Shown one piece after another: positions 377 through 46,858 of a stretch of 64,000 nucleotides of DNA. Each line of letters starts with the position of its first letter. The stretch's first letter is position 1. Position numbers and translations under genes: made by a program. Below the pieces are notes generated by a model. That model saw only the letters and a list, made by a program, of their open reading frames with translations. It had not been told where the DNA came from and made no database searches. This DNA is from Ectocarpus siliculosus (taxonomy: Eukaryota > Sar > Phaeophyceae > Ectocarpales > Ectocarpaceae), in NCBI GenBank assembly GCA_000310025.1, contig FN649727.1, positions 5,784,537-5,848,536 on the forward strand. Reading direction: 5' to 3'.

Positions 377-3300
377 CCACGCGAAATGAAATCATTGTTT
401 TGTGAATAGATTTGGCCGCACGCACTGGCTGTGGTAAAAATGCGCCGGTGATTTTGAGTGATGGCTTATTTGCCGCGTGCTTGATCGGTGTTGGTCGATC
501 GAGCGGTCGATCTACTCGTTGCTGCTATGCCCTGACTTGTCTCTTGAGAATCCCAATCTGATCCAACCTGGTGGGTGCTTGTTTGTTCAGCTGTGCGGCC
601 ACCAAGCACACTCGAAATTGATGCTTTGCTGTCCCGTGTCTGTTGCTGAACTCACGGACTCACATTGGTGTTTGGAAGGCACTCAAACAAACCTGTCGTG
701 GTGTTGTTCCATGTGGTTCTATGAGTGCGCCCGAAAGGATGGTGATGGCCCCAGTTTGCGTAGGGGTACTTGAAACTGTAGGCAGCAGAACGGCGAAAGA
801 CCTCGTTTCATCAGTAATGACTGTTTTTTCTGTTGGGCTCGTTTTGTTATTTGGAGTTTTCGGGGGTGGCACGTTTGTTTCCGATCTGCTTGTTTTGTGG
901 AGGGTAATATCGTTGTGTTCGCCATAGACCCTGGAGGTGGTGTATCGTAGGAGCTATGTTTATGTTTACAAGTGTACACTACAATTTATGTGGAGATGGC
1001 CCGATCTGGGAGAGAGAGGAACGAGGATCTCTGCGATGGCTTGTTTGTACTTTTTTTAACGAGAGTGCTGAAAAATCATACGAAGTACTTTTTAATTTTT
1101 CCATGGGCATGGACTGCGGCGACGCAACGAATTGCCCACAGGGGAACTCCCAAGTACGCAGTATTGCTGGGCTGTGCCAACGCAGATTGGGCTGGACACG
1201 AGGGTTTTGTCTACCATGCGCCACCACCCCCAGCGAAATTAATTATATTTGCAGCATTTCGGATAAGGGAGGCCTGGAATGCACACGCGCGTATTCCTTT
1301 TATTTGTGGAGACCACCTTCATAAAGGTACAATCTCCCCAACGTCTGTCGAGGACGATCCCCTCTTCTCACAATGGCGTCGACGAAGAGATGTCAGAGTG
1401 TGTCGATCGCGCAGTCACGCGGATCATCCACTTCCATTTTGACGTTTCCCCCCTTTTCCGCATTTTTCCCGTCCCCGGGTAAGATTGGCCATCGGTGATC
1501 GGTCCTGTGGGAACAATGCTCCGTCCTCTCGAGGACGCGTGGTCAATGGTCTAACCGCTAAGGCATGCAAAACATGAGAGTACGCTCCCCCCCCCCGGGT
1601 AATGGTCAAACGACTACGGCATGCACGACTATGAGTACACCCCCCCCCCCCCGGGTAAGCTCGTTTACAAGAGCTTCTTTACCTACTTCCGGACTACTCA
1701 GGTACACGCGTTCGTATATACCGATGTGCACATAGTGCACCGGCTCGGAAGCATCATCAGCTGGCCGATCAGAGTATGCGTCTTGCGGGATTCGTCTTCG
1801 AGACTACACTGGTACTTCGAAGCTAGATTTTGTGACGAATTGCGACAGGTCGTCCTTCTCTTGTTGCTGGCACCTGATGCTGCTGTAGCAGGCACTTTCT
1901 CAGTGGCTTCTTTTCCAGGCTGCTCGGTACACCCCGAATCCCAATACTTCACGTCGTGTCGTGTTGACTTGGCCTTAACACTACGATACTGTCTCCGACA
2001 GTTCATTTCAATATATATCCTGTCATGTCCGGGAACGGTGGTTCCGTGATGACGAAACCCTCCTCACAAGCTGCGACATATTTTGTAATGTTTCAAGTCC
2101 CTTCCGATATCCCAAACGTAACCCGCCTCTTGACCAATGGGCGCGACCCTCTTGATGCAACAGGTGTCATCTTCTGGCTGTTCAACAAACCACACTGCAA
2201 CCTTGAACGAGAAGCATCCGATGCAAGCACATGGGGGGGCAGAGTCAGACGCGCACTGCAGAAACCAGCCCAACGCACCGAGAAAAGAACACCTTGTGGG
2301 GGTTCATCGTCCTGAATGTTCTACAACACGGAGTTGAACTGTACTTGTATGTACCAAGGAACAGAAGGGCAGCACGAGGAGTGCAAGAGAACAGTCTTGT
2401 ACAAGATCCCTCCTACGGAATGGGTTCTTGATTCTTGGGTGTTAGGATCATGGAGGCGACGAACGATAATAGGGAAACAAACCATTTGTGTCATGTCCAC
2501 TGCTACTCCTGTAGGCCCGGGCGTTTTTCGTTCATTTTGCGGGTTTCCCTTAAATGCTGTGTTGCCCTGTTTGAGAGGCTGTGTGTGTGACCTAAACAGC
2601 CTTGCGACAATTGAGGTTCGAACGTGATAAGAGGATGTGTGTGAACTGAACAGTCGCGAATTTTGAGGTCCGGGCGTGAGAGGTGATGAGCTGGCGAGAC
2701 CGGAGCCCTACCAGCAGCAGTAGCATCAGCAGTGGCCTAAAGAGGGACTGTCGTGGGCATGCACGTGCGTCATGTGTCGTTCGAATGCAAGTCAGGCCCA
2801 AAAAAGGAGCAACAGTTCGGGCGCCCATTCTCTCAGATTCTGTGTGGAAGTTATCACCTCTTCGCGTAGTGTTTCCCACGATGGGGTGTGTTTGTTGCAC
2901 AAACCAATGAACAAAGTTTACTGCGTTTCTCGCTCAGTCTTTCCAGTCGACAAAGACCGACAGCTGCTGAAAAACAGATGACGGGCTCTGCGAACACGTT
3001 TCACTGCCAACCATCAGCAGAGGCCGTCACTGTTCAAACATGAAGAGAAAGCACGCCATGAGCTGAATGATGCGAGCACAGACTGCTCAAGCTTGAATGC
3101 ACCGAGTCGTGTGGCATGGCCGGCTGTTGCTGTGCGAGATTGCAATAGAGGGTAGGGTTGCCTTGGAGTTCGTAGAGTGAACACTCATCTTCACACCCCA
3201 TTGCTCAAAAATGGCACCTGCGCATACATTGTCACTCCAGCACGAGCACGGATCACATGCTCAATATTTATCGGCCAAGTATGACCAGCACACCTGACGT

Positions 3301-3429
3301 TTATACCGGTGTGAAGAAACACTGCCACTTTGCGTGAATCAAACAATCACAACAGACATCACGTCACTCCTCAGTACATCAAATAATTCTTACAAGGCAG
3401 GCCCTGAAGAGCCAAAAGCAAATCCAACA
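377..3429. other. Tail-to-tail intergenic region (transhydrogenase / IMP3)
   Basis: About 3 kb between two convergent stop codons. I find no exon that I can tie to a family. It probably holds both 3' UTRs plus repeat debris. The repeat at 1480-1655 lies here. Stretches at 1698-2006 and 2064-2273 are open on the minus strand and could be a decayed mobile element, but I recognise no domain in them. Confidence 0.5.
1480..1655. repeat. Poly-C-ended dispersed repeat, two related units
   Basis: Two related units follow one another, each ending in a C-run followed by cgggtaa. The first (about 1484-1600) contains gatcggtcctgtggg, cctctcgaggacgcgtgg and ggcatgcaaaacatgag; an inverted copy lies at 23285-23410. 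The second (about 1604-1655) contains actacggcatgcacgactat then gagtac and a C-run; the same end closes the 600-bp repeats at 38773 and 45616. A shorter relative with ggcatgcaaaacacgagcac and a C-run is at 17236-17285. The shared terminus marks a repeat family of unknown class. Confidence 0.6.
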
Positions 3430-6015
3430 CTACCCCTCCCCCAGCAGATCGAAATCATCCACTTTGTCCTCGTATGTCTTGATGGCGCGCTTGATCTTTG
3501 AGCCATCCACCCAGGTCACAAAGTCTTCCATACTTCGGGTCACCAGAAACTGTGTGCGATGGCAAAAGCAAGGGGCAGCATTGAGGGCGTCCTGGTCAGT
3601 AACGGTGCCGTCCGACGGAGACAAGGGGGGGGGGCTCCACACAACAGGGTGCGCCCCTGGTTGATGAGCTTGAAACAACTCTGGTTGGTAGGAACCCTTT
3701 CCACCTTACCGTGGCCGAAAAAGCGCAGGTACCCTGCTGAGGTTACTTTCGCGCAGAAAGTATACCCTGAATTGTCGAGGAAGATGCAGAAACGAGATTC
3801 AAGACCACAATTCTGGCGGGAGCATTCGTCCATTCCACGAACGTGTTGCGGTTTTAGGCACAGTGCGGATTCCGAGCAGTCCGTTTGGAGGCAGGATGTG
3901 TTATAGTCAGGTTTGGACAATAAATAATATAAAACCGCGCACGTTGTGGAAAGCAGATGTGTTTCGCTCCTTCCCATGCAGTCCGGTTCAAGATTATCTC
4001 AACCCTGAGCACGGATCGCCACGCAAGTCAATTGATACCGACCGCTATGGTCAAGCCGGCCCGTGCACTCGACAGGAAGTCTTTCCCACTCACCGCTGGA
4101 TCCGTGACAGCGTGGGGACCCACCCTAACGTGCCCCTGCTCGATGTACGTCGTAGCCTCCGTGAGTGTTTCGGACATCTTGAGTCTCACCATCACCACCG
4201 GTAATCGTCGTCTGTAGGAGGAGAGCAAGCAACGAGCACGCGCGTATTTCGAGGAGGGATAAAACCATTGAGCAGCGCACTCCTTGCACCAAGATACAAG
4301 TTGCAAGAACTTCGCATCTTGTGCGTAGGAACTTTGTGCCGAATACATCCAAAATGTGAAAGTGTGTTATGTGAAGCAGACTCTCGTCAATCACAAGAGG
4401 CGTTGGGGGCAGGGAGAATGGCAGGCAGCAATATGCATCCAGGGGGGAGGGGGTTGCACGCGTGCCAGGGCAATACGCGCCACAAAAGCCAGTGGCGTGA
4501 GCCTCACGAGAGCGTCGTGGAGCCCTGTTGTAGGCATATCGATTCAGCCACGTCCTGTTCCGTCGAAGCAAGAAACCTCAGATTCCCAAGGTTCTCGTGC
4601 GGTGTCATGAAAAAACGTGGAGGATAAGGCATCGTGACGGACCCGCGTGTGCGTCAGCCGCGGACAAATCACCTGCTGTCGGCTATTGGCGCGTGGCTCT
4701 GCTTGGCTCGTTCTGCCCTAGTTAGAGTACATGATGTTTTCGTTCAGGTTGCGAAGCCGGAGGAAAAAAGATAGGCCGGTTGAGGACCTAATGGTGTCAC
4801 CTGCAGAAGGAAGACACGCTGGCTGTCTCCGTCTTAGCCAGACTTTTCTTCGTGTTGATGATCCCCATCGCAAACAGCTTTTCCAGCAGCTGTTCGGTCA
4901 TCTTTATCCGGAACTCGTCGCTCGCATCCAAGGTCTACCGGAACGGGGGTGTGCGGGAAAAATCAACTGAGGTCGTTGCATCTGGTGGTCAATCGCACCG
5001 AAACGCGAAGCACGCACACTGTGACCACGCCGAACGAAATCGTTGGGGCGAGGTGGCGGCGCGGCGAAAGCGGCCAAAACCCGACGAAGACCTTTCAATG
5101 CTCACTATAGTTTTTTCGTGTATTCTCAGCTCTTTACTGGCCATTACAATTGTACACGTCACGTCTTGCCGGGTTGGTAACACACAACGCCCGGCAGTTG
5201 TTTCGTCCCGCAATCTACCTTGAGTCTGGCTGTGAGCTTCGTGATGAGCCCAACGATTTTGTTGTACTTGACGTAGTCGTCTCTGTTCTGCACCAGATAT
5301 CTTCGAAGGACCTGCGACAACAAGCAAAGAGGGCAGTTGACAAAAAGGGGTAACCCCAACGGTTCAGGAACCACCGTACTATTGATTCCTGTACCGTGCC
5401 GTACACACGTCGTCCGATGCACCCTTCAGCAACAACGCAGAGAGACCGGGAGAGAGAGGGGAAGATACAAAGATGAAACGCAGACGCAAGAACGAGCAAT
5501 ATGCATGCACGCATGCACCCTTTGGTCTCAGACAGGCTCCTAGAACACAGATGTAGAGACAAGGAAGGACTGCCCACCCGAGACAGACCTCGAAAGAGTG
5601 CGACGTAGTTCTAAAAGTGAAGGTCCAGCTACACAGTACACGGCCTGAGATGCTTCGTTTCATGATAAAAACATGCACTGCTGTGATCTACGTAGATCTG
5701 GTTCCTCGGTTTGTGTTTCCTCCAGCTCTCTCCGCAAGGGCGAGGGGAAGCAAACTCCAACATGCCGAGAGTTTTGAGGGACAGTGGATACTGCGGTACT
5801 AGCAGAGCTTTGGTTTCAGCAGCCGTACCCGCTGGCTGCGGCAGCTGACAACAGGGACACGCCCGCACTTGGGGTGTTTGAGCAAACACAGGACTGTCAA
5901 TTTTCATCCGTTCCACCCTCCACACCTGAATCTCGCGGATGTTCTGGTCGCTCTTCCACTGCAAGAAGTCGACCTTCTTCAAGAGCTTCTGCTCATGGTA
6001 CTTCAGCTTCCTCAT
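3430..6015 (-). CDS. IMP3: IMP3, U3 small nucleolar ribonucleoprotein protein
   Basis: IMP3 binds U3 snoRNA and helps it pair with pre-rRNA during small-subunit processome assembly in the nucleolus. Five exons, read right to left: 6015-5926, 5311-5219, 4934-4801, 4211-4094, 3549-3430. All introns are GT...AG and the phases agree, giving 184 residues, the same length as human IMP3. The N-terminus [18 protein letters not shown], the middle [17 protein letters not shown], the S4 RNA-binding region [13 protein letters not shown] with [11 protein letters not shown], and the end [15 protein letters not shown] then DDFDLL all align to the family without gaps. The start is the ATG at 6015; a TTG two codons upstream extends the frame but is not needed. 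The introns contain unrelated open frames. The gene looks intact and functional. Confidence 0.93.
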
Positions 6016-14523: not shown

Positions 14524-27009
<12,486 letters not shown>

Positions 27010-27240
27010 CTCTACTCGCCAAGGAGTCACTTCAGTAGTCAGTAGGAGCGAAAGTGTGGGTCAGGCTTGCTCACCCCAACCTTGCTTCGTCGTCGGCACC
27101 GCTCCGTGGTTTTAAATTTGGCAACCGCCCACCCCCTCCCGTAATACTTCATCCCCCCAGAAAGCGCGCACCATTTCACCACACACAGCAGCCCCCGCAG
27201 CACTTAGTGTGGCCGCCGGCAAGGGTACGTGCCGCTGAAC
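27010..27240. promoter_or_regulatory. Compact divergent promoter region, protease / PHD-AP2 gene
   Basis: Only 231 bp separate the protease start (ATG at 27009, minus) from the PHD-AP2 start (ATG at 27241, plus). Both 5' UTRs and both core promoters, or one bidirectional promoter, must fit here unless upstream non-coding exons exist. An AT-rich block tggttttaaatttggca lies at about 27107-27123, flanked by C-rich tracts. No canonical element is otherwise evident. Confidence 0.5.
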
Positions 27241-30200
27241 ATGGACGTGGCAGCCTCCCAGCCCCCGAGCCACCACGGGACCGCGGCGCCAACGCGATCT
27301 TCGCCGCCGAAGCCTACAACGGTGAGTACGAACAAAATCACACAAAAAAAATTAGCGCCCTCTCTCTCCACTGCATAATCTACATATGCATACGGCAGCA
27401 GACTGCTGTCCATCTGATTTCGAACGTCTCTCGTCGTGCAAGAGTTTATTCATTTTACACACACTTTGCACTAAAGTACCCTCGGGCGTACCGCCGTGGT
27501 TTGGCGTAGGGTAGCGGGTTTCGTCCGCACATTTCTGCAGAGATGACGGTGGAGATTTTTGAGTTTCTCGCACGCGAACGGCTACAACTCTCGGCTCACG
27601 ACTCCAAAGTCGAAAGTCGTTTCGGTGTATCGATCGCGTTCGTTCACAATGACTCGACGAGAGGGGAATTTACGCCGCCGGACAGGCGAGCGTACTGATT
27701 TCGGCCGCCGGCTGTTGGGGCCTGGTCCGAGCAGCCGAGCGCCTGCAGCAGGTTGCTTGACATACGAAGCGCTGGTGCTGTAGAGAACAAATGTTGACGT
27801 TTACGTAGGGGGGGGGGAGATGGTTTAGTGAGAAGCGAAGCATTTACGATGATGTGCAATAATCGCAGCAGTCGTCGACGAGGGTTCATATTGAAATCGT
27901 CTGAAAAAACGTTCGCATTTTCGAACCCCTCACTCACTCACGTGAAAACGAATACTGTACTGTAGGTTCTCCCCTTCCCCTCCCCTCTGCACTTCATTTC
28001 CTCTACCGGTGCTTCCTCTTCAGCGGGCGAGAGAAAAATGTAGACTCACGACTGCTGATGATGCTGTTGCTGCTGCCTGTTCTCGACAGCCCGCACATCT
28101 GTTTCACAGGAAATTTCGGGGCACAGCTGTACTTGACCTTCGAGATAAACGGCTGCCCTCCCTTGCATACCGCCAGTACAAGTAAAACAGCACTACTTAG
28201 CCGAATCGTCTGTTTGCTGCTGCAACCCCCCACGTCAGTTTGCCCGCGTCTGTGACTGCCACCATGGAGCCAGTACGGTGGCAAGAGCTCCTGCCAACGG
28301 CGATCACGTAAAACGAATTGCGGCGGTATCACCTAGACTAACTATGCAAGGTCTTGCGTGTTTTCATTCTCCTCACGACCCTGCTGGTGTTTCACCACCA
28401 CAACCACCACCACCACCACCACCACCACCAGCCGCGGCAGGTAGTCGGCACAACCAGAGCTTCTCGCTCAAACAACAACAACAGCAGCAACGGCGGCAAA
28501 ACGCCGCTGGCGACAACGGCGACGACGCGCAAGAAGGGAGCAGCCACAATAGTGGCAGTAGCGGCGGCGGCGGCGGCTGCATCAGCGGCGGCAGCAGCAG
28601 CAGCATTAGGCGTGGGCGGTGGCAATGGCGGCGGTGGCGGCGGCGGCGTAAGCGCTGTTCCCGGAGGCGGCGGGGGGGCGGTTAAAAAACGCGATAGCGC
28701 CAAGAAGGGCGGTGCCGAGAGCCCGCGAGGGGCACGAGGAGGCGCGAGCGGGGTAAACGGTGGGAGCGGGAGCGGGAGCGGCAACGCCTCCGGCGTTTCG
28801 CGGAAGAGGGTACGCGTGAGGGACGAGAAGCTCGGCGAGTTCGCGGTTCTGTTGGCACCATACGAAGGAGGTGAGGGGAGGAGGGAGCTCTTCCGCGTGT
28901 CTTTTTTGTCTCCCCCGGACAAGTAGTGCGATACAAGGGAGCTGGTCTCAAAGAGAAAGACCGGGTCGCACGATGCCTTTTCGCCATGAGGGCAACTGGT
29001 TTTTTGGTGTTTTGGGGTCTTGCTTTGCTTCGCATTGCCGTCGCGGAGACGAGAATTCCCGCCGGGGCGGCTAGCCTTGGGTGCTTGGTGACCACCGGTG
29101 GTTTGGCTGGGCATGCCAGAGGCACTGCTGTACAATGGTGGAACGGACATGTTGTTGTGCTGCTGTACAACGGCAGAGACGAGACGCCAGCCGCCTTAAA
29201 GTCTTCTCCTCCCCGCCCCTTATGCCAACCCGGAAGAGCACTACTGGAATTCGATGGCATACCCTGCTCGGCATCTTGGTGCTGCTGCGAACTGAAATCC
29301 TGAAATCAGAGCTAGCAGGCACGGAATTGTGTGCTCTTCGGCTTAATCTGTGCCAGCCGTTCATCTCCCGGGAGCAACGCGCGCGCGCAAAATCCACGTT
29401 TTATGTTTGCTGAATCCTGAAATATGTCTCCCTAACGCTCCGTCTCCCCCCCCCGTCCTTCGCCGCCCCGCCCCTATTTCTACAACAACGACCGACCAGA
29501 CCACAACGATATCTGCGAGATATGCGACAAGGGCGGGGACCTCCTGTGCTGCGACTTTTGTAACCTGGTAGGTGGCCTTGCGTTTTGCTCTGTTGCGCAG
29601 GGAGAGGCGCTACACAGCAGCAGCAATGAAAGTCACCACACGCAGACATGATAGATGCAGGGTTGGGTGGCAAGACGTTTCCTGTTAGGCCTTTCAGGCA
29701 TCGTGGATGGCGTCGGGCTTTAGCATTGGGGCAAGAACGCCTCGTCAGCACCAGCAAAACCCCCTCAGAGTCGTCCAGCCTCGTTCCGTGTTGCGCCCCA
29801 TCACCGTCACTGTCTGCGCCAGCTTGTGACTGAACATGTGTGCGTGACTCCCCCCAAGTCCGAACGGCGAGTCGATATGCACTTCGTTCGTTTGATACTC
29901 TTCAATCTGTTCACGCTCGTGCCTACGCGTGCTTCCGGCGCACGTCTCGCTCGGCGTATTTTCGCGACAACCGGCTGTCCGTGGCGGTCCGTCTCCGTGC
30001 TAGTGGTGGTGTTGTTGGCCCGCCTTGTCCCCCCTGCTACGTGGAGTAGACTATTCGACGCCTCTTATCTGATAATCTGAGTGTGCTGTGCGGGCGGGCG
30101 GGTGTGGGCTCCCTCTTTGATCCCCGTGTCGATGTTGTTTTTGTTGCAGGTTTACCACTTGTGCTGCGTGACGCCAAAGCTGACCGAGGTAAGAACACAG

Positions 30201-33025
30201 AAAAACACCGCAGCGGCTTCGTGTTAGCCGCAAGTGCTGTTTTTGTGCTTCGTAGTAATTTGTCGTGGGTGGGAGGAGGCTCGCTGGCGTGAAAGTCAGA
30301 TGCTGTCCTACGGCCTCGATACGTTCGGTGACCGTCTTCTGTCAACCATATGATAAGGGCACAGGCGTGGTTGGCGGAGACTCCCTAGTTCTCACCAACG
30401 GTACGGTAGCTTTTCGACTATGCCGGCATCAACGACTGCACAGACTATTTCCAAACTTACCTTTTTGCGCGAAGCGCTTGGTGGAGTAGTTGGGTGGTCG
30501 TTTTTGAAAGCTCGCTTTTTCTTCCCAAGGTGGAGAGTCTTGCGCGAGAATTCCACCTCGCGCGCGTGACCAATAAACGGGCTGCGTTTCTTGTTGTACG
30601 CGGCGCGCATCTTCGGTCGGCGTGTCAAGGGGGAGGGCATAAAGCCCGGCGACATGCAGAATGACGTTCGTTTCTGTCTACAATGTATCTGTTGGAGAAT
30701 GTGCGTAAAATATATCATCCTGTTACACTTCCTGTTACACTTCCTGTGTTCTCCCCTTTGTTTCGCCTGGCAGCTTCCGGACGAAGATCTTTGGATGTGC
30801 CCGGCGTGCACGGCGGAGGTTACCAGCCGTCAGGTGCATGCGGTGTGCGGGATCCGTTCCTGTCTTGACGCTGTTTTCGGCATGCTGTTTTGCTGTATCT
30901 CCGAGTCCGTCCGTTTTCCAGGGAGAGTGTAGTGCCAGACTTGCGTCTACGCCATATCGCTGTGTAGGAATAGGTCGTGAGGTTCTCGCTGACGAAGGGC
31001 GAAGGACGTCAAACGTGGTGCGCGTCCTGTCTGACGCTGGCAAGAAAGTTTGCTGCTGTTGTGTTTTTTCACCTCACGCACTCCGCGATACATACACGCC
31101 TGACGCGACCTCCTCTCACGAGCAACAAGCACACCACCTCTCAGAAACACGCCATCAATTTTTGCCTTCATCTTGGCACTCCCTCCCCAGATCGCTAAGC
31201 GGCGGCGACTGGAGGACGGAGGGCGGTCGACGTCGCCGGGTCCGGGAGGGTCGGGTCGACATCACGGACAAGAGAGGGTCCGAGGCTACCAAGGAGTGAA
31301 GGCCGAAAACGACGCGTTCCGAGCCTTTGTGCTGTACAAGAACCAGACCATGGACATTGGCCTTTTCCCCACGGCCCAAGCGGCGGCGCGGGCCTACGAC
31401 CGCAAGGTGCGGGGGGGGGGGTCCCGGCGGACAAGAAGATGGACGCTAGTTTTGCGGCGCTGGCAGTGCTGTTGTCGGCGCTGGCATTGCTGCTGTCGAG
31501 AGTATGTGCTGATAGTGTAAGCACATCCGTTGCACGTTCTTCTTCGTATGTTTGTGTTTGACTACACGACTCGCTGCTGCTCGATGTTAGTCCCTCGCTT
31601 CTCCATGGCTTGACCTTGACGCCCGTGTCTTTGTGTACGAATCCTCGTGGTAGCCCCCCATCCCACCCCACCCCACCCACGATGGCTAGCTTTCGTTCCG
31701 CCCAACAAGGCTGAGCTGCGCGTGATCCTTCCAACCATTTACTGCTTTGCAACAGAATTTCACCTCTTCGCGCGTTCGTTCTCGCTCCCCTCCTGCATGA
31801 ATTTCCTACAAACCACCTCCCGGGCTCTCTCTCTCTCTCTCTCTCTTGGTGGTTGTTTCGATGGACCGACACTTCTCTCATTGTTTGCGCTTGCCCGCTC
31901 TTTGCCGCAAACACTGATAAAAGGCTCTGAGTCTATTCGGCGACGCGGCGGTCTGCAACTTCCCAGCGGACGAGCAGGTCGAGGTGGAAGGGGTCGCCAC
32001 AGATGGAACCACGGTCAAGGTAAGCATGCATGATACTTTCGCTGTTGTACGGGTGCATAACAAATGACGGCGAGTAGGCATGCATGCAAACTTTCGCTGC
32101 CTGGTCGAGTACTCTTACCTTCCACGTTCGTATCGGTGCTTTCTTGAGTTGGCATGCGTTGACACTGAATTGTTCGAACGGTCGACGTGAGGGGAAACCA
32201 GGCATTACCTCGTCAGTAGTGCCAGGTGTTTGGAGACTGCATTCGGGATCTGACTTGTTGGCTTGACTTGGCTTGCCTCTCCTTCCTTTCCCTCTGGGCG
32301 GACCTTGCCGTTCCTGTGGGGCGCGGCGTTGCTCATGGGAAAAAACAAAAACAGGGCGTGGTGCGGAGCTTTCACCAGTGGCGGGCTGAGATGCAGTGGG
32401 GAAACAAGAAGCGGCACCTGGGATTTTTCGAACGACGTGAGCTTCCTTTGCGCTGACATTAACCTGTCCAAGGATACAGTCAGTACGACTTAGGTTGCGC
32501 GGCAGCACCAGCTTCCACCTCGAAGCCAAGCAAGGGCTCCGATTTTTCCGATTGTTTGCGCTCATTGGTGGCCCACACCCACCACGCCAGTTTGCGCTGT
32601 TGTTTTGACTGCCGATAACCGTCGTTTGGTTGTTCACAAAACCGCATTTGCATACCTGTTCTTGATTTTTGTTTTGTGTCTCTTGCGCGCTACCTGCCAC
32701 CCCCCCCCCCCCCCCCCCCNNNNNNNNNNNNNNNNNNNNNNNNNNNNNNNNNNNNNNNNNNNNNNNNNNNNNNNNNNNNNNNNNNNNNNNNNNNNNNNNN
32801 NNNNNNNNNNNNNNNNNNNAGTTTGGGGTGGGGGGGCACCCCCATTTCCCCCCGGAAACCCAACAAGGGGTTCGATTTTTTCGGTTTTTTGGGGCAAAGG
32901 GGGGCCCCCCCCCCCCCCCCCCGTTTGGGGTGTTTTTTTGAACCCCCAAAACCCGTGTTTGGTTTTTCCAAAAACCCCCTTTGCAACCCCTTTTTTTATT
33001 TTTTTTTTGGGTTTTTGGGGGGCCT

Positions 33026-33056
<31 letters not shown>

Positions 33057-36000
33057 GTGTTCATGTGATCTCCCGCGTCCCCCAAGTGGAGCATGCCTCG
33101 CAAGCGTACAACCGAGCCGCCCTGTACATGAACGGGCCGGAGACCCCTCTCAACCCAACCAAGGAAGGGTACGTGCCCCCGCCTCTCACCGAACGGTCTG
33201 TGAGGGTGCCGAGGAACAAGTTGTTCGTGCAGCAGCTCCCCCTGCCGCTCATTGCGCAGGCGCAGGTATGTGGGCCGGGCGGAGGCCTCATCCATACAAA
33301 TCCAACACCTGGTGCTTTCTTACAAAACGGAGATGCGACAGAGGGAGAAACAGTGCGCTTTGAATGTCAAAACGGAGGTCGACGTCTACTGCACCCACGT
33401 ACCGTGTTGTGCCGCGTTTTGCGGTGGTGTTGGCGTATTCATCACCTTCAAGGGGCTCGCTTCGGGCTTGTTCTCCTCTTTGACGCCTTCTCGGAAGGCG
33501 TCGATGACGGTCTTGGTGTGGCTTCAGTCGGGAGCTTTTGGGGGGGTCGTTTTGTCGGGGGGCTAGACCAATGAGCCTACGCGCACACGTATTGCTTGGT
33601 CGAAGGTCGTGGTGCTGTCAAACGCCTCCCCCCCCCCCCATTCCGGTGTCATACCTGTACGTGGAGAACACCGGGGCACCACGGAATCATTGCACAACAT
33701 CGGGCACCGCGGAATCATTGCACAGCAGTTTCTATCGAGAATTTTTCCTTACCTCTGTCCCTTGACCCTTGGTTCGTGCCTGGCAACTGCCGCCCTTCAG
33801 GTCGAAGGAGCCAACAACAGCGCGGAGTTCATCCGACGCAGGCAGCAGATGCGGGGCAAGTACCACTCCCCGCTGGTCGGCGACAACCACCAAGTGTCAC
33901 GCTTGCCGCCGTTGCCGCCACCGTCGACGCCCCGGGCCAGCAGGATCCGGTCCGTTGCCTGTGCTGCTGCTGCTGCTGCTGCTGCACCTTCCTCGGCGGG
34001 GGAGGCCGCAATGTCGCCGCTTGGTGCGACCGTGGCCGCTGCTCCCGGCGGGCTTACAAGCGAAAGCAGGGTTAAGGGTAGTGGGACGGCTTGCGTTGAC
34101 CTGCCGGAGGCACTGCGAGTGCAAGTGTCCTCGAAGTTGGTCATCTCGCAAGCGGTGGCCGCTCCTGCTGCTGCTGCTGCTGCCCTTCCCGCCGTTGTAG
34201 GAACTGTGACGTACTCCCCCGTTGCTTCTGCTGTTGCTTCGCAAGCTGTGGCTGGCAAAGGGAAGGGGCGTGCTACCGCGGCCGCGAACGACACAGTGGG
34301 GTGTCCGCCGGCAAGTAAGCCGCCACCGCCGACGGCGGTAGTAGCATCGTGCGCAGAAAGCCTTCCGGAAGCGGCAGCTGGTGCCGAGACTGCTTTCACG
34401 ACCAACAGTGCTACTGTTCTGGCAGCTTCTTCATCGGCTGGCGTCGCTAAGCCTCCGGCTGCTGCTGAGGACGGCGTGTCCAAACCCCCGGCTGCGTGTG
34501 TTGCAGCTACGGCGTTGACCAGCCCACCGAGAGGGCTTACAAAGGCGGTCAATTCGACGGGCGACGGCACGGTGCTGGCCAATCGGGGGGAGATGATGAT
34601 GCTTGACTGGGAAAGGCCATCGCGAAGCCAACTCGCGGACTCGATGGAGGTTGATAACCGTCCGGGCTTGGATGAGGCGGCGGCGAACACGGCGGTATCT
34701 GCGGCGACGCCACCTCCAGCAGACGTGTCCCGCATGAAAGCGGAAGATGGGAGCGTCGTCATCACGGCTGGCACCACCACCACCACCGTCAGCGAGGCAT
34801 CCCTGAAGGCTCTATATCCGGCAGCGGCGGCGGCGGCGGCGGCGGTGGCGGCTGAGGCATCTCGTAGCCAGATCCCTGCCGGAGGTTGCGAAACGTTCAC
34901 ATGGGGCCAAACTAAACCAACGGAAGCGGAAGCGTCCGTTGCGCCACCATCGACCCCACGGAGAGCTTCCGCAGAAAGCGAAGGGGGCGGCGGGTCGCGG
35001 AGCGCTGACTATCGCCCTGTTACGGGGTGGGAGAGGACGACTTTGATGCGGGCTCCGTCCCCACCCGCTCCCTCGCCGCCGCAGTCGTCTTTGCCCGTCA
35101 AGGGTACCCCAGTACTAGCTTCTTCAGGCGTAACGAGGGGACAAGCAGGCGTCGGCGCCGCAGAGACCGCAAGCTTGGCGATGAAGCCACTGCGGTCGGC
35201 AGTGGCATCGGCTACGCCGGCGTCGTCATCGGTGACACCACCGGCACGTTCTCCTAGCCCGAACGCCGCAGGCCGGAAGCGAAGACTGGGCGCTGGAGGA
35301 GGAGGAGGAGGCTGTTCAGCCAGCGGGAGTGGAAATGGAGTAACAGGTCCGGGAACAAGCAGCAGTAGCAGCAGCAGCAGCGGTAGTGGTAGCAACTGGG
35401 GTAGAGAGGGCGGTACCGGTGCTTTGCCGCCGCCTCCGCCGCCGCCCCCGCCGATCCCCGATCTGTCGTTCGAGGATGTGGCGGAGCTTGTCTGGGACCC
35501 GCGGTCGGGGCCGAAGCCCAGAGGAGCGGCTGAGGCGAGAGGCCCACGAGGGGTCGCTGCGGCCAACCGGTCGCCGTTAGAGCAGGCCATGTGGGACCGG
35601 GACAGCACGCTGCTCGAGCGCGTGGCGCCGGCGCACGCGGAGAAGTCGATGCAGGTCCTCCAGATGCACCGCCACGACGTGGAGAGGGCGGCGCAGATGC
35701 TGACGGTCCGGCACGGGATCCACGTAATGGGACTGTCAAGCGTCCGGACGACCCGCAACAAGCGCGCAGAGCAGCAGCAGCAGCAGCAGCAGTCCCTCCT
35801 GAATCCCGCCGCGAGACCACCGTCGTCGTCGTTCGCCGCCACCGGCGGCAGCAGCGGCAGCAGCGGCGGAGGTGGTGGTGGCGGTGGGAGGAGTAGCGGA
35901 AGAGCTAGCTTTGAAGGTTGGCAGGCAGCGGCAGCGCCGAGAGCGCCGCCCGCGGCCAAGGCTGTCGGGACGGCATCGCCGACTCATGGCGGGGCGTCCG

Positions 36001-37132
36001 GGCCGGGAGGAGGAGGAGGAGGAGCGGTGGCGGCGGCCGGGGGGGCACCGCGATGCGGGAAGAAGGCGGACGCCCAGGGCGTCACGCGCGAGGAGGCGAA
36101 GCTGGCGGGCGACGCTTTCATGCGGCACGGGCGGGACCTGAACGCGGTGCAGAAGACTCTCGGCTGGAAGAGGAGCCGAGTGGTCGAGTACTACTACTGC
36201 GTGTGGAAGTATTCACCGGCGTACCAGGTGGGTTTTTTTAGGGTGGAAGTGGTTGGAATGTAAGGTAGACCGGGAGGGAGAGGAGCGGAGGGCGATTCAT
36301 TTAGACAATGTTGAGTGTGTGCGAAAGAGGAGAGGAAGCGGCCGGTAGACATGCGGTCTAGTGTGGTTCCAAGACCTTCTTTCACATCATGAGCACACTG
36401 CGCTTCACAACTGCAGGAATGTCAGGTTGAATGTGTCCTCAGGCCGCTGCCGTGCGTAGTAAGACCGCCCGACCTCCCGTCTGGTTAATAAATAATAGTT
36501 AGTGGTATGTGGTTTCGTTGCCATACACGCAATGGACACTGAACGCGACGATGAGGGCGAGGGTAGGTCATGGCGAGCATGCTCGCGGACGCTACAAAAG
36601 TTATGAGCAGTTCCTGTCCCTCTCTCCCACCCCGCACGCTCAAAGTCTCTAAATACCAAATATTCAGTGTGTACAGGGGAGCGGAGGGCTCCTGACTCCC
36701 TGTCGTTGATTTCAATTGGCTTGCGGACCATTCGGGTCCTTGTATTATTTTAGTATACCTTTTTGGGTAAGTTACCCTGTCACCACGGGAATCGACCGGT
36801 CAAGTGTTTGATCAGTACGGACAGATGAAGGTGCTGGGTAGAGAGATCGGAACGGTTTTTCATGTGAAGACAAAACAAACATGACGCCTTTCTCCCGACG
36901 CACTCCGCATCGGTGTTCTCGGCGTTGACGTTTGTAGGTGTGGAAGGCTACCCGGCACAAGGCAGGCTTGCCCGGCGTCAGCAAGGGCGCGGGAACTGGT
37001 GGCGCGGGTTCGGGGGTTCACTCCGCGTCCGCCGGCGGGTTGACGGGAGGTGGGATCCTGAACGCGAGCTCCGACGGGATGCGGTGGCGAGGTTCCCGCC
37101 TCCGCACGCTCAAGGCGCCGTCCTCCCAGTGA
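27241..37132 (+). CDS. PHD - AP2 - AP2 - ELM2/SANT-like chromatin or transcription factor
   Basis: Predicted nuclear regulator, 1290 aa. Exons: 27241-27321, 28441-28870, 29500-29567, 30150-30188, 30774-30833, 31191-31406, 31924-32019, 32355-32436, 33087-33265, 33801-36227, 36938-37132; phases agree throughout. Residues 28-170 are low complexity (Asn, Ala, Gly runs). A C4HC3 PHD finger spans about 171-222 (ICEICDKGGDLLCCDFC, VYHLCCV, DLWMCPAC), expected to read histone H3 tails. Two AP2 DNA-binding folds follow: about 256-317 (RGYQGVKAEN, GLFPTAQAAARAYDRK, LSLFGDAAVCNFP) and about 331-375 (GVVRSFHQWRAEMQW, LGFFER, ASQAYNRAALYMNG). A long Ala/Pro/Ser-rich linker leads to an ELM2-like block from about 969 (FEDVAELVWDP, HRHDVERAAQML) and a SANT-like domain at about 1181-1230 (FMRHGRDLNAVQKTLGWKRS, VVEYYYCVWKY). 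ELM2-SANT pairs usually recruit HDAC1/2-type deacetylases. The ELM2 call is weaker than the others. Confidence 0.85.
28393..28432. repeat. CAC/CCA trinucleotide run before exon 2 acceptor
   Basis: A (CAC)n tract of about 40 bp lies immediately upstream of the gcggcag acceptor of PHD-AP2 exon 2. It can serve as part of the acceptor context. Read through in frame it would give a His run, but the spliced model excludes it. Confidence 0.7.
32720..32819. other. Assembly gap of 100 N
   Basis: Exactly 100 undetermined bases, the conventional placeholder for a gap of unknown size. It sits in PHD-AP2 intron 8 (32437-33086), between the two exons that make up the second AP2 domain, after a run of about 20 C. 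Confidence 0.97.
32820..33056. other. Probable low-quality duplicate of 32488-32719
   Basis: The sequence after the gap is dominated by homopolymers, yet follows the sequence before the gap in order: ccggaaacccaacaaggggt mirrors tcgaagccaagcaagggctc, and cgattttttcggttttttgg mirrors cgatttttccgattgtttgc. Later blocks keep the same order down to the terminal C-run. This looks like a poor end-of-read sequence joined as if it were unique, not a biological repeat. Confidence 0.75.
36778..36872 (-). repeat. Dispersed repeat, copy A (inverted)
   Basis: Its reverse complement contains gaaaaaccgttccgatctct, gtccgtactgatc and cggtcgattcccgtgg, which also occur at 57176-57276 and, more diverged, at 52639-52700. 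This copy is in the last intron of the PHD-AP2 gene. The three copies share a start at gtcttcacat. Confidence 0.7.
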
Positions 37133-39789
37133 TTTAATTGGATCGATTGATTTGTGGATGGCGTTCGATATGGTTCTTAGTCCGAGCGCGCCTATGTGTC
37201 TTGTGTCCTGATAGGAGTGCGTAAACACGACGACGGTGAGACACCGAGATTTTTTGTGGTCTGGTTTTCGTGAAACACGTGCCTGTCAGTTGTGTTGTGT
37301 TGGGAGGAGGAAGGCGTACGTGCGTGGCCGGTAACAGCGCGGGGGTGGAATGCGTTTCGTGTGGCCGATCTTGTGTTGCTTGGACAGCACGGGAGTTCAT
37401 TGTCAAAAGGAACAAATGCTTGCCAGTTGTATGTACGCCCTTTGGTCACGTGCTCTCGCTGTGGGCTATCCAACGCGGAGAGGCTGCATATGCGCGTCAT
37501 TACTCTCTGTTGCAATTTAATGGTCGTAGTTGGTGGTGGTGGTGGGGCGATTGCTTGGCACAAGGACAGTCCGCGTCGCTCGCATCACCCTCGATCGCCC
37601 TTAACCATGCTCACCGTACGGAGGCATGTATGCGGGCATTTAGTCTTGAAAATGTAGCGTGTGCTTCTCAATGGCTTGATTTCATGAAGAGGCATGTTGG
37701 CAGTACGGTATGCTGTTGACGGTGGCTGGCTCTGTCGAGACCTGCCGTCTCTGCTGCCCGAAAAGGGTGAGGAGAGTACGGAGTCGAGAAGGATCTTTTT
37801 GCCGAGTCGGATACTGGCTTTCGTGGCATTAGCGTCAAAGCCGTAAGCAGGGTAACAAACGAGTGTCGTGCGCATGATTCGGATGTGGAAACGCACCGTG
37901 TAAGGTGCTATTAGCATCAGTTTCGACAGATGCATGCGGCCGTGGAGCCATCGTGGAGATTCGCTCGTGGTACAACAGCAGTATCGGGGAAAGGGTAAGA
38001 GGTTAGCGGGCGGTCTCTGCTGCCGGTATGTGTGTGTCGCTTGTGCGAACCTTTTCTGTGGGTGTTGAAACCGCCCTTGGGCATACTATAACTAATATCA
38101 CACGAAGAGTCGTGACTCATTCTTGGTGTTTCGGTGGCAATATCCCGCGGTAGCAAAGACGGTTTCAGATTAATGCATGCGGCGGCGTTGAAAGCCCCGT
38201 CGCCAGTCCTCCGTGCTTGGTACACCCATGGATACCGAAAGGGCCAGCCGGGGTGTTGGGGGGGGATAGAGTCAAATGCTCGACAGGGAGGCATACGCAT
38301 GCGCACGGGGGACGGTTATGAACGCGATACGCGATTGATGGCTAGGAGTGTACTTTATATTTAACCACTCCGTCTTGGCGGAGTCGCCATGGTGCGCCGC
38401 CGAGAAAATTTAACGTCTTGACGGAGGGGCCCGAAGGAGGGGAAATAAGGTGGCCTGTGTTGTTGATGTGGCCTGCCACCACGTTTCCTGCCTCTTCCTC
38501 CAGTACGATTTTATGTAGACATGTGGGAAAAAAAGCGTTTGTCTTGAAAGGACTGACAGGTTTAAATAATCAATGCAAACACCTACGAATGCATTGCACA
38601 GGGCATGGTGGCCCCCACCAGCAGCAGCAAGCTGTTGATGCGTATCTCATAGGCATCACAGCAGTTGAGCTCTCACCTCACCATGTTATTCGTGCTCTGG
38701 GCTACGATTGAGGGCCCGGGCGCCGGGGCGTTTCGAGACGGGGCTCGGCGGACGGGAAGACGGGGTTGAGGAGGGGGGGGGGGGGGGGTACTCATAGTCG
38801 TGCATGCCGTAGTCGTTTGACCATTGACCTCGCATCCCTACAAAGCCGGGACGGAGCACGCCGGGTTCTCACCGGACCAGGCTCTCACATCACCAAGCGC
38901 GAAGCGCCGTGAGGTATTTGGCGAGTCGCATGAAGGGTGAGCTGCATCCTGCTAAGGGTGTTCTGCATCTTGTGCTTACTTCCTTGCGTACGGATGACAG
39001 CTACGTATGACTTAATTTATTTTTTGGTGCTTTCACTTCCAGAGACAGTTGTACGCACTGTGTAACTGCCTCGAGGAAGCTTGACCATTTTAACACAACG
39101 TGGTGCGATCATCCCCCGTTGCGCGGAGTGAGGTTTCTCGACCCCGCACAACATGATCTACTCGACCACCATTATGGTTACCGCCAAAAAAAAAAACGAG
39201 GTAAAAAAAAAAAAACGGTAACCTGGTTGCCGAGTTCACGAAGTGAATTGGCCTGTTTTACAACGCCGTTGCCAAGCGACGAAAACCCAATCCCGATGGC
39301 AAACACCGAGTGGGGGGCTTGTTTTACAACGTCGTTGCCAAGCGACGAAAACCCAAACCCCGATGGCAAACACCGGGGGGGCGGGGAGGGGGGGTGCCAT
39401 TTGCCGCGGTGGTAACACTCCTCATGCACGAGGGCTGGACATAGGCATGCTTTCAACAGAATGCCTACTTCTGCAAATAACCACATCCAGACACGGGCGC
39501 TCGCCACTCGTCACTCTTCTGCAGGAGGGATTGACGAGACACAATTTGTTTGCTGGCTGTTGGCGAAACATATGGCGTCTTCGGACAAGTCACCCAAAGC
39601 AGAACAACATCGAAAAATTCCTGAGAAGCCCTTGAGCCGTGCAACACATTGCACGCCTTGCCCGCCACCACTTGAGTGCACGCACTTCGTTCAACAAACG
39701 ACGCACGCATCGTACCGTGTGTGCAACCCATACCACAAAATACACCTACTCACGGATACTTCCTATTTTGTACAGCAGAAACGAATCAA
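37133..39789. other. Tail-to-tail intergenic region (PHD-AP2 gene / TRAPPC4)
   Basis: About 2.7 kb between convergent stop codons. It holds the two 3' UTRs and the 600-bp repeat at 38773-39394. I see no additional exon with recognisable similarity. Confidence 0.5.
38773..39394 (-). repeat. 600-bp interspersed repeat, copy 1
   Basis: Bounded by G-runs on both sides. Almost its whole length is the reverse complement of 45616-46232 with only scattered differences. Internal landmarks include tgttgtgcggggt-like and gcatcctgctaagggtgttc-like blocks. A stem-loop with ggttaccg and cggtaacc flanks two A/T tracts (39177-39222). Two tandem units of about 59 bp with cgttgccaagcgacgaaaac end it (39256-39375). 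There is no coding potential, so it would be a non-autonomous element. TIRs and target duplications are not obvious. Confidence 0.85.
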
Positions 39790-43993: not shown

Positions 43994-46858
43994 ATGGTAT
44001 ACGACTTCAGGTCGAGCACATTCTCCAGCGCTTCCCCGTTTCTGTGCCCGGAGCATCCGACCAACGAGGACCGCGCTCTGGTGTTTGACGATATGGTGAG
44101 TTGTGCGGGGAAAGTACTGTAATTGGTCGCCGAAGGCAGTGAATAGTTTATGGGTCGGCGTATGCATAAAACGTGGTACGTAGGCAGCAGCTGCTTGCTG
44201 GTGTGACGTGCAGGACAGCTGTAAATCGGAGGGGGGGGCGGGGGCGGGCGGGAGTCAGAGGCACGAATTCTTACCTCTTGTCAGCCTCGACTCGTCCGAA
44301 TCGTAGGCATGCTCTGAACATGACCTAGGCGCCTATATACAGCCGTCGCAGCGGTTTTATTGCCTAGCCGATGCGCGTTAAAAATCACGGTTCGATGTAT
44401 CTCCCTGAGCCTTTCACCCGCCGGCAGCAGTACAACTGTGTGTAAGGTGCCCTTCAGCGAGTTCGCGCTTGCTGCGTACCATGATATATACTGGGGCCTT
44501 TCCGCATGGCGTAGCTGTGTGTGTGCCAACTCCGTTGTTGCCGCAACACTACCGTGGCCAGCCTTTCTCTGAAGGCCCCAAAGTATGTTGTTTGTGAAGC
44601 ACCTTTTTTTTTTAACAGCCTTGGAAGGAGCGGACGCTTGCTTCATCGCGGGGTTTTGCGGCAAGAGCTGTCGCGCGAGCAGTAGCAGCGGTGCCGCAGC
44701 CGTGCCCTGCCGCCGCCGACACCGAGGCCCTCACGCAAATTCCAGCAAGCTGTGGTCGTGTTCACGAACACGTGACCTACAAGTCCACGGATCCACCCCT
44801 CATTTCTTGTGCCGTGCCCGTCGTCAGGTTCTTGTCTCCCACCGCACACCGAACCGTGTGCTGTGCCATACATCGCAAAACGCCAGTACCTTGTTGTTTT
44901 GCGCGCTCCTCCCTTGCGATTTCGCTTACGATCGAATGGCGGGTGGGCAGGTATCCGTGCTGAAGCTGGCTCCGACGGGAACGCGAGGGCCTTTGGCGTG
45001 CCTGTTCGGGGTGTTTGACGGGCACGGTGGCGATGGAGCCTCCAAGTTCGTGGCGAACCACCTCCATCACTTGGTGAGCTACGCTACGACGCGGACGATA
45101 CCCAGACTGGGAGCGTCCAGGCGCTATGCAAGGATTTGAAAAACGGCTTTTTATCACCTAGCAAACAACGGCAGATTCTGGTGGTCTGGTTCTGGCGGGA
45201 TAAGACTTGCTCTGTGTCATCCGCTCGCCACACGGCGCCGTGGAAGGGGTTTCGTGTCGTTTACGTGTGACAAGCGAATTTGACCAGGTTTTTGCGTCAC
45301 CATGCACAGATAAGTGCTTTTTGCACCACCTTTGTACACGCCCGGCAAGTCTTATCAACCGCCGAGTTCTTGTGCACGATCCAGGAACGTATTAAACACA
45401 GGAAGAGCAACGGCCGTACCTGAGGAGGCGTCTCGTCGTTTTTTTCTACCCTGTCGGGGGTTTTTGTCACCCCCCTGTTCGCCATGGAGCATACCGTTTT
45501 TGCTTTGCTGCTCCCCCCCCCCCCTCTCTCATCCGACCCGGCCCTCACTCCTCTCTCTACATGTATCCTTCCCCACCTCACACCATACCATACCACACCG
45601 CACCACGCTAAAAACCTCTCCCCCCTCCCGGTGTTTGCCATCGGGGTTGGGTTTTCGTCGCTTGGCAACGACGTTGTAAAACAAGCCCCCCACTCGGTGT
45701 TTGCCATCGGGATTGGGTTTTCGTCGCTTGGCAACGACGTTGTAAAAAAAGCCAATTCACTTCGTGAACTCGGCAACCAGGTTACCGTTTTTTTTTTCCT
45801 CTGTTTTTTTTTTGGCGGTAACCATAATGATGGTCGAGTAGATCATGTTGTGCGGGGTGGAAAACCCTCGCTCCGCGCAAGGGGGATGATCGCACCACGT
45901 TGTGTTAAAATGGTCAAGCATCCTCGAGGCAGTTACACAGTGCTTACAACTGTCTCTGGAAGTGAAAGCACCAGAAAATAAATTAAGTCATACGCAGCTG
46001 TCATCCGTACGCAAGGAAGTAAGCACAAGATGCCGAACACCCTTAGCAGGATGCAGCTCACCCTTCATGCGACTCGCCGAATACCTCACGGCGCTTCGCG
46101 CTTGGTGATGTGAAAGCCTGGTCCGGTGAGAACCCGGCGTGCTCCGTCCCGGCTTTGTAGGGATGCGAGGTCAATGGGCTAATGACTACGGCATGCACGA
46201 CTATGAGTACACCTCCCCCCCCCCCCCTCCCTGTCGCGTGCGCGCACCAAACACGGACCCCAAGATCGGGAGGAGCGCCTTCTACGAGAGCATCGATTAC
46301 CCCGCGGACGAGGCGCTGGCGAGCGCGGTGGAGGAAGGAGTAGCGTCGGTCGAGCAGGTCGATGGCGTATTCTCATGGGTCAGGCGGTCAGAGCAGTGCC
46401 GCGGAAGTATTACAAGAATAATTTAGCGTGGGTACGCCACTAGTACACACAAAGACCCACGCGTGGGGCATCGATTGCACACGTGTGCGCGAGATATGCC
46501 AAGGGGCACTAACAGCCCTTTGTAACATTGTAAACGAACGTTGGGAACAAGCGTTTTCTCGGAGTACAAAAAGGTACCCGAATATGTCTCTGGGTAATAC
46601 GAAATACTCGTAAGCGTCGTAATTTCGGTAGGTACGCAAGAGGACGGGGCCGGTTAGATAAACAGCAGGTAGGGAAAAATTAGCTACTGACTTGCGCTTT
46701 TGGCGGTAAGAGAAGACTCTCCTTGGTTGATCTCGCTTGTCCGACTGACGATGACCATAAAAAATCGTTTGAACTGATGTGTGACCCCTCTCCCCCCCCC
46801 CCCCCTCGCGTACCGCCACACTATTGGCTGGTCGCACCGCTCACACTTGTAATTGTCG

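Follow-up and report, generated by a model that had tools for sequence, protein, structure and literature searches.

In excerpts of the published descriptions, on which the citations here are based, MTA1 carries a GATA-type finger and an ELM2-SANT module in one chain; through this module the histone deacetylase (HDAC) HDAC1 is recruited and, with inositol phosphate, activated (PMC4244562). SAEG-1 combines C2H2 zinc fingers, ELM2 and SANT in a single chain (PMC3088716), and its human relatives ZNF541 and TRERF1 occur in HDAC1/2 complexes (PMC3088716, PMC4344507). In Plasmodium, AP2 factors, an EELM2 scaffold and a deacetylase belong to one network in which AP2 and EELM2 are separate proteins (PMC6693557), and MORC links to HDAC1 (PMC6693557; also PMC11483127, PMC12891473). 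One survey reports apicomplexan-type AP2 genes to be absent from stramenopiles (PMC4501334), and Ectocarpus is described as possessing proteins with AP2 domains, none of them a close homologue of BABYBOOM (PMC12629598). Here we examine a predicted gene of Ectocarpus siliculosus in a stretch of 64,000 nucleotides (the window; C2:5784537-5848536), whose single spliced frame places a PHD finger, two AP2 domains and a SANT domain preceded by a split candidate ELM2 domain in one protein. Our best explanation, to which we assign a probability of roughly 0.58, is one gene for a single-chain repressor in which AP2 would bind DNA, PHD would check the histone H3 tail, and ELM2-SANT would hold and activate a class I HDAC.

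Gene model and domain order

The gene model runs from an ATG at 27241 to a stop ending at 37132 on the + strand, with 11 exons encoding 1285 amino acids. Exon borders were hand-picked for fit and then verified by script, which found GT/AG borders in 10/10 introns, compatible phases throughout and a single open frame. The domains of the predicted protein follow one another in the order PHD, AP2, AP2, ELM2 start, a 516-amino-acid insert, ELM2 end and SANT, and the pieces are located as follows.

27241..37132, +: whole predicted gene, supported by splice borders, phases and frame
27241..27321, +: exon 1, proposed start ATG, no domain; the least certain piece of the model
28441..28870, +: exon 2, N-terminal stretch of low complexity; codon score 0.28, other sense frames -0.11 and -0.12
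29500..29567, +: exon 3, first part of the PHD finger (gene model, Pfam)
30150..30188, +: exon 4, middle of the PHD finger (gene model, Pfam)
30774..30818, +: exon 5, end of the PHD finger, which as a whole spans amino acids 172-221 (PF00628, CHD4 match)
31191..31406, +: exon 6, N-terminal part of AP2 domain 1 (WRI1 match, local AP2 profile)
31924..32019, +: exon 7, remainder of AP2 domain 1, amino acids 254-307 (local profile, WRI1, ERF096)
32355..32436, +: exon 8, N-terminal part of AP2 domain 2 (WRI1 match, local AP2 profile)
32720..32819, no strand: 100 consecutive N within intron 8
33087..33265, +: exon 9, remainder of AP2 domain 2 (amino acids 324-377, together with the last part of exon 7), then a linker (local profile)
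33801..36227, +: exon 10, ELM2 start, 516-amino-acid insert, ELM2 end, 125-amino-acid linker and most of SANT (gene model, codon scores)
33867..33914, +: candidate ELM2 start with a VG-x2-HQ-x3-LP motif, amino acids 435-450 (by eye; Pfam 13.3 bits on joined halves only)
35463..35501, +: candidate ELM2 LVWDP piece, amino acids 967-979 (by eye; within the sub-cut-off joined Pfam match, outside the MTA1 alignment)
35634..35705, +: candidate ELM2 C-terminal helix, amino acids 1024-1047 (mostly aligned to MTA1 jointly with SANT, 7.1e-5)
36081..36946, +: SANT domain, amino acids 1173-1224, ending in exon 11 (MTA3 match, predicted three-helix bundle, non-significant Foldseek match to MTA1)
36938..37132, +: exon 11, SANT end, C-terminal tail and stop (gene model)

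Codon use was scored with a table derived from five long frames at other loci of the genome, chosen for being open. By this measure the annotated frame ranks first among the three sense frames in 11/11 exons; once antisense frames are included, it is outscored in exon 5 and equalled in exon 4. The run of N in intron 8 is the sole one and falls between the halves of AP2 domain 2. Around it, at 32490-33055, long C and G runs are seen by eye on both sides, and the sequence that follows the run resembles a degraded copy of the one that precedes it, which suggests a possible misassembly in that part of the intron.

PHD finger and tandem AP2 domains

The PHD finger, split across exons 3-5, is securely assigned. 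PF00628 matches it at 1.9e-6 with 28.2 bits on the whole protein and 34.9 bits on the piece, passing the cut-off of 24 bits, and the C4HC3 ligand spacing can be read by eye. Among the best 60 of 79 solved-structure matches at E <=0.001, CHD4 comes first (5.6e-20, two fingers summed), followed among the matches listed by PHF12, PHF21A, CHD5 and AIRE. Several of these proteins read unmethylated H3K4 and belong to deacetylase complexes. Sequence comparison thus confirms a PHD finger here.

AP2 domain 1 is encoded by exons 6-7 and AP2 domain 2 by exons 8-9. Against solved structures, plant WRI1 ranks first (1.2e-7), with its two AP2 domains matched in tandem order; the two stretches are weak when taken singly (0.046 and 0.091), and the second solved AP2 match is ERF096 (1.1e-5). 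A local AP2 profile was built from four other AP2 pieces of the genome (two whole, two half), and it scores 47.9 bits on domain 1 and 31.8 bits on domain 2, values that 0 of 5000 shuffles reached in either case (best shuffle scores 8.9 and 8.5). This comparison is partly circular, as the four pieces were originally found with the window's own protein; those on contigs C457 and C479 match Pfam AP2 independently (1.4e-6 and 3.7e-5), and no Pfam AP2 support was found for those on C17 and C48.

PF00847, which the preliminary description had named for recognizing these domains, stays below its cut-off of 33.3 bits throughout. Within the window's protein it gives 12.4 bits for domain 2 and no match for domain 1, and on the tandem region it gives 21.4 bits (E 3.2e-4) over two stretches. 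A genome-wide search with the same profile returned three matches, all below the cut-off and none of them in the window. Since the canonical, textbook AP2 domain of C457 is also rejected (29.0 vs 33.3 bits), we regard this cut-off as too strict for the Ectocarpus genome, and it is the tandem WRI1 match together with the shuffle-controlled local profile that confirms both AP2 domains. We rejected the possibility that the two calls are halves of a single domain, given that each is split over exons of its own (6 and 7; 8 and 9) and that, in each, the match to the AP2 profile covers most of the domain.

The C457 result is also a caution for AP2 gene counts made with the Pfam cut-off. The AP2 genes at C457:184026-184214 and C45:150365-150550 are 77% identical within the domain.

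SANT domain and candidate ELM2 halves

When the SANT piece was compared with solved structures up to E 10, all 20 rows were MTA, RCOR or NCOR2 chains, the best single match being MTA3 (23.4 bits, E 4e-4). On this comparison the domain is closer to HDAC-binding SANT than to DNA-binding Myb domains, and we take the SANT domain as confirmed, with its nearest sequence relatives in the HDAC corepressors MTA3 and MTA1. The weak Pfam rows for the same piece are DUF7952 (0.0054) and Phage_integrase (0.0083), both under cut-off. A single-sequence fold of 35451-36227, made without an alignment, has a mean predicted local distance difference test (pLDDT) score of 58.9. Its sole confident and plausible part is a three-helix bundle at the SANT (block pLDDT 81-92), the other confident part being one 75-residue helix. 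Foldseek placed MTA1-HDAC1 structures at ranks 1-4 (E 0.17-0.21) and SMRT fifth, none of them significant (all E at least 0.17), so that the predicted fold weakly supports the SANT assignment.

With the insert and the linker removed, the candidate ELM2 helix and the SANT are matched together by MTA1 of the HDAC1 complex (25.9 bits, 7.1e-5), the VG and LVWDP pieces lying outside the alignment. The ELM2 end without the SANT gave one unrelated match to solved structures (E 1.9) and nothing significant. The candidate ELM2 is the weakest member of the domain set, and sequence comparison confirms it only in part.

Alternative readings

The exon 9/exon 10 junction bears on whether there is one gene or two. 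In the alternative with two adjacent genes, a PHD-AP2-AP2 factor would end near 33574, since reading onward from exon 9 meets a stop at 33572-33574. The ELM2-SANT corepressor would then be a gene of its own, beginning at ATG 33849, just ahead of the ELM2 motif. At C48, likewise, another PHD and AP2 stand on one strand with no SANT and no convincing ELM2 match in the 16 kb compared. The codon scores speak against such a break. They fall from +0.24 in exon 9 to -0.51 over the 102 codons of read-through past its donor, and rise from -0.39 upstream of the exon 10 acceptor to +0.23 after it; the read-through is intron-like when set beside overlapping windows from 9 of 10 introns (intron 8 with its gap left out; median -0.53, n=255). 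Moreover, the sole in-frame ATG between 33567 and 33900 is the one at 33849, 48 bases past the acceptor at 33801, and the 16 codons from acceptor to ATG score 0.30, a value matched by 14 of 4959 overlapping windows from the same nine introns. Because the coding signal begins before this ATG, exon 10 looks spliced onto an upstream exon; exon 9 is the nearest one in phase, only 535 bases away, and its donor and the exon 10 acceptor are phase-compatible. This codon evidence, which is indirect and rests on five training frames and short stretches, favours one gene, and we consider two genes unlikely. We infer that all exons are joined in one transcript.

Several results weigh against a single-chain repressor, most of them at the C-terminal end. 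PF01448 did not match the full-length protein even with E values up to 1 allowed and reached 13.3 bits on hand-joined halves without the insert (cut-off 21.7), and a genome-wide search with it found one gene, on C34 (30.5 bits), and not the window; the ELM2 start on C3 is likewise below the cut-off, at 14.2 bits. The predicted ELM2 is interrupted by 516 amino acids, and a further 125 separate it from the SANT, so it does not stand directly before the SANT. Adding the ELM2 pieces raises the MTA1 match (5icn) only from 20.7 bits for SANT alone to 25.9. Helix 3 of the SANT has one residue more than MTA1 between the Tyr run and W-K, and Arg replaces the Lys of the MTA1 YGKD stretch. The first SANT of RCOR1 is the HDAC-side one, and the second outscores it as a match to the window's SANT (12.0 vs 7.4 bits). 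We take the aligned Tyr run, W-K and YGKD Lys to be residues of the inositol-phosphate pocket. In MTA1 the ELM2 immediately precedes the SANT, and the pocket consists of two Lys and two Tyr (PMC4244562). With the extra helix 3 residue and the Lys-to-Arg change, this pocket would be at best partly kept. Elsewhere in the genome the ELM2-SANT part has no significant match (best E 0.109), and no orthologue was found in viral and prokaryote contigs, a collection that covers no algal or other stramenopile genomes. At the N-terminal end, AP2 domain 1 lacks most of the Arg/Trp DNA contacts of plant ERF, and codon scores are at most +0.16 in 4 of 11 exons (3, 4, 5 and 8; 39-82 bases).

The preliminary description had joined a PHD finger, two AP2 domains and an ELM2-SANT module in a spliced frame at 27241-37132. 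Its frame, PHD finger, AP2 domains, SANT and domain order all held up in our analysis, and its ELM2 did so partially. It had also tied this reading to AP2 and ELM2 scores above the profile thresholds. Both fall short; the AP2 shortfall we attribute to the strictness of the threshold, and the ELM2 shortfall stands.

The sub-cut-off ELM2, its long insert, the additional helix 3 residue and the better match of the second RCOR1 SANT could also be explained by one gene whose C-terminus is a decayed or repurposed SANT/Myb region with no working HDAC adaptor, the ELM2 being a relic or a chance resemblance. The RCOR1 result in particular slightly lowered our estimate for the single-chain repressor and slightly raised that for such decay. 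A decayed region would sit less well with the corepressor chains that fill all 20 rows behind MTA3 as the best single domain, with the joint alignment of ELM2 helix and SANT to MTA1, and with a SANT-like piece on C16 that lies on the same strand as a PHD and has equal spacing before W-K. We judge decay unlikely and retain the single-chain repressor, in which the ELM2 would be a working one. A further possibility is that the insert is an intron missed by the model, so that the protein, from one gene or two, would have a compact ELM2. In its favour, ELM2 halves normally lie close together, and the translated insert is Ala/Ser/Pro-rich. We hold it improbable, as the frame is open across the whole length of the insert and the annotated frame outscores the other two sense frames in codon use in 16 of 17 exon 10 windows, so that the insert looks translated.

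Relatives in the genome and neighbouring features

Profile and protein searches of the genome (189 Mb, 492 contigs) were run per exon, a procedure by which matches may be missed. Other AP2 genes or pieces lie on C457, C45, C17, C479 and C48, and other ELM2 or SANT genes on C34 (ELM2), C3 (ELM2 start, SANT, PHD) and C16 (SANT-like, PHD). In the stretches compared from C34, C3, C16 and C48, 8-16 kb in length, AP2 and ELM2-SANT were nowhere convincingly paired; those of C457, C17 and C479 were examined for AP2 only, and C45 was outside the comparison. A genome-wide PF25826 search gave two matches, both below cut-off. HDAC genes are represented by 14 exon matches of PF00850, assigned at family level only.

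Of these loci, C3:4965001-4974000 carries an ELM2 start, SANT and PHD on one strand at about 2250-4490 and is likely an ELM2-SANT-PHD gene. C16:5795001-5803000 has, at 2040-5374, a SANT-like piece with the W-K spacing of the window's SANT and then a PHD, and two W-x-C-x2-C type zinc fingers can be seen there by eye. On the minus strand of C48:136001-146000, 7268-4377, a PHD, an AP2 and a second PHD lie within 3 kb. We did not accept the C48 locus as an established sister of the gene: although its PHD shares 57% identity with that of the window, the C3 and C59 PHDs reach 55% and 54%, and its PHD and AP2 exons are, by eye, not directly in phase. A BAH domain ahead of the C34 ELM2 was likewise rejected, with no Pfam match at E up to 10 and no solved-structure match at E up to 1.

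Beside the gene, two minus-strand frames at 25000-25497 and 26725-27060 have by eye a common motif, GE-x-CSWC-x-SE-x2-P-x2-C-x-PP-x2-AKV, and seem to be a small Cys-rich gene present twice, in head-to-head orientation to the PHD-AP2 gene. At 39250-39375 and 45620-45753 there are 66-bp tandem repeats whose units look by eye like mutual reverse complements.

Proposed mechanism and comparison with known systems

In the single-chain repressor as we envisage it, the tandem AP2 domains would bind DNA at target promoters, and the PHD finger would check the H3 tail, perhaps for unmethylated K4, as CHD4 and PHF21A do. On the same nucleosome, the C-terminal ELM2-SANT module would hold a class I histone deacetylase and activate it. 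We infer the DNA and histone binding and the HDAC recruitment from the domains and their known relatives.

AP2 factors are found in plants, apicomplexans and algae, and in the literature examined it is through separate partner proteins that they are known to be linked to deacetylases. A fusion of AP2 with ELM2-SANT, if true, would directly show the corepressor partner of AP2 proteins in this lineage and would provide a single gene on which the AP2-corepressor pairing is testable. Searches of open-licence papers found no PHD-AP2-ELM2-SANT combination and nothing uniting AP2, ELM2, PHD and Ectocarpus, or ELM2 and Ectocarpus; for ELM2 and diatoms they gave nothing relevant, the sole match being unrelated by its abstract. 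Within this literature the domain combination is new, and the principle of a DNA-binding-type domain and ELM2-SANT in one chain is already known. The idea of a combined-domain regulator, raised in the preliminary description, is partly supported, in its domain list and order, and is, after SAEG-1 and MTA1, not new in principle.

The closest solved relatives of the PHD finger are those of CHD4, PHF12 and PHF21A, which differ in that they sit in other deacetylase-complex partners and are not known from AP2 or ELM2 proteins. Plant AP2/ERF factors such as WRI1 resemble the predicted protein in their tandem AP2 domains, matched in order though weakly one by one, and differ in having no known PHD, ELM2 or SANT. 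The MTA1-3 proteins of NuRD are, among solved structures, nearest to the SANT and the ELM2 helix and have a GATA-type finger in the chain with their ELM2-SANT module; as excerpted, they differ in carrying BAH besides that finger, no PHD or AP2, and an ELM2 directly before the SANT. The SAEG-1/TRERF1/ZNF541 (MiDAC) family shares the union of a DNA-binding-type domain with ELM2-SANT, with C2H2 fingers where the window's protein has PHD and AP2, and the excerpts mention no split ELM2 for SAEG-1. By this analogy, the gene is best read as an AP2 repressor with its own HDAC adaptor, much as SAEG-1 has one beside its C2H2 fingers. The ApiAP2-EELM2-MORC-HDAC1 network of Plasmodium, for its part, ties AP2 to an ELM2 scaffold and a deacetylase through separate chains, in agreement with the earlier remark that AP2 and ELM2-SANT proteins are normally separate, whereas one phase-consistent predicted model joins them here. 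We suggest tentatively, at slightly less than even odds, that an AP2 factor, an H3-tail reader and an HDAC-holding ELM2-SANT in one polypeptide represent a covalent version of the apicomplexan AP2-EELM2-HDAC partnership, a link that would be old or would have arisen twice.

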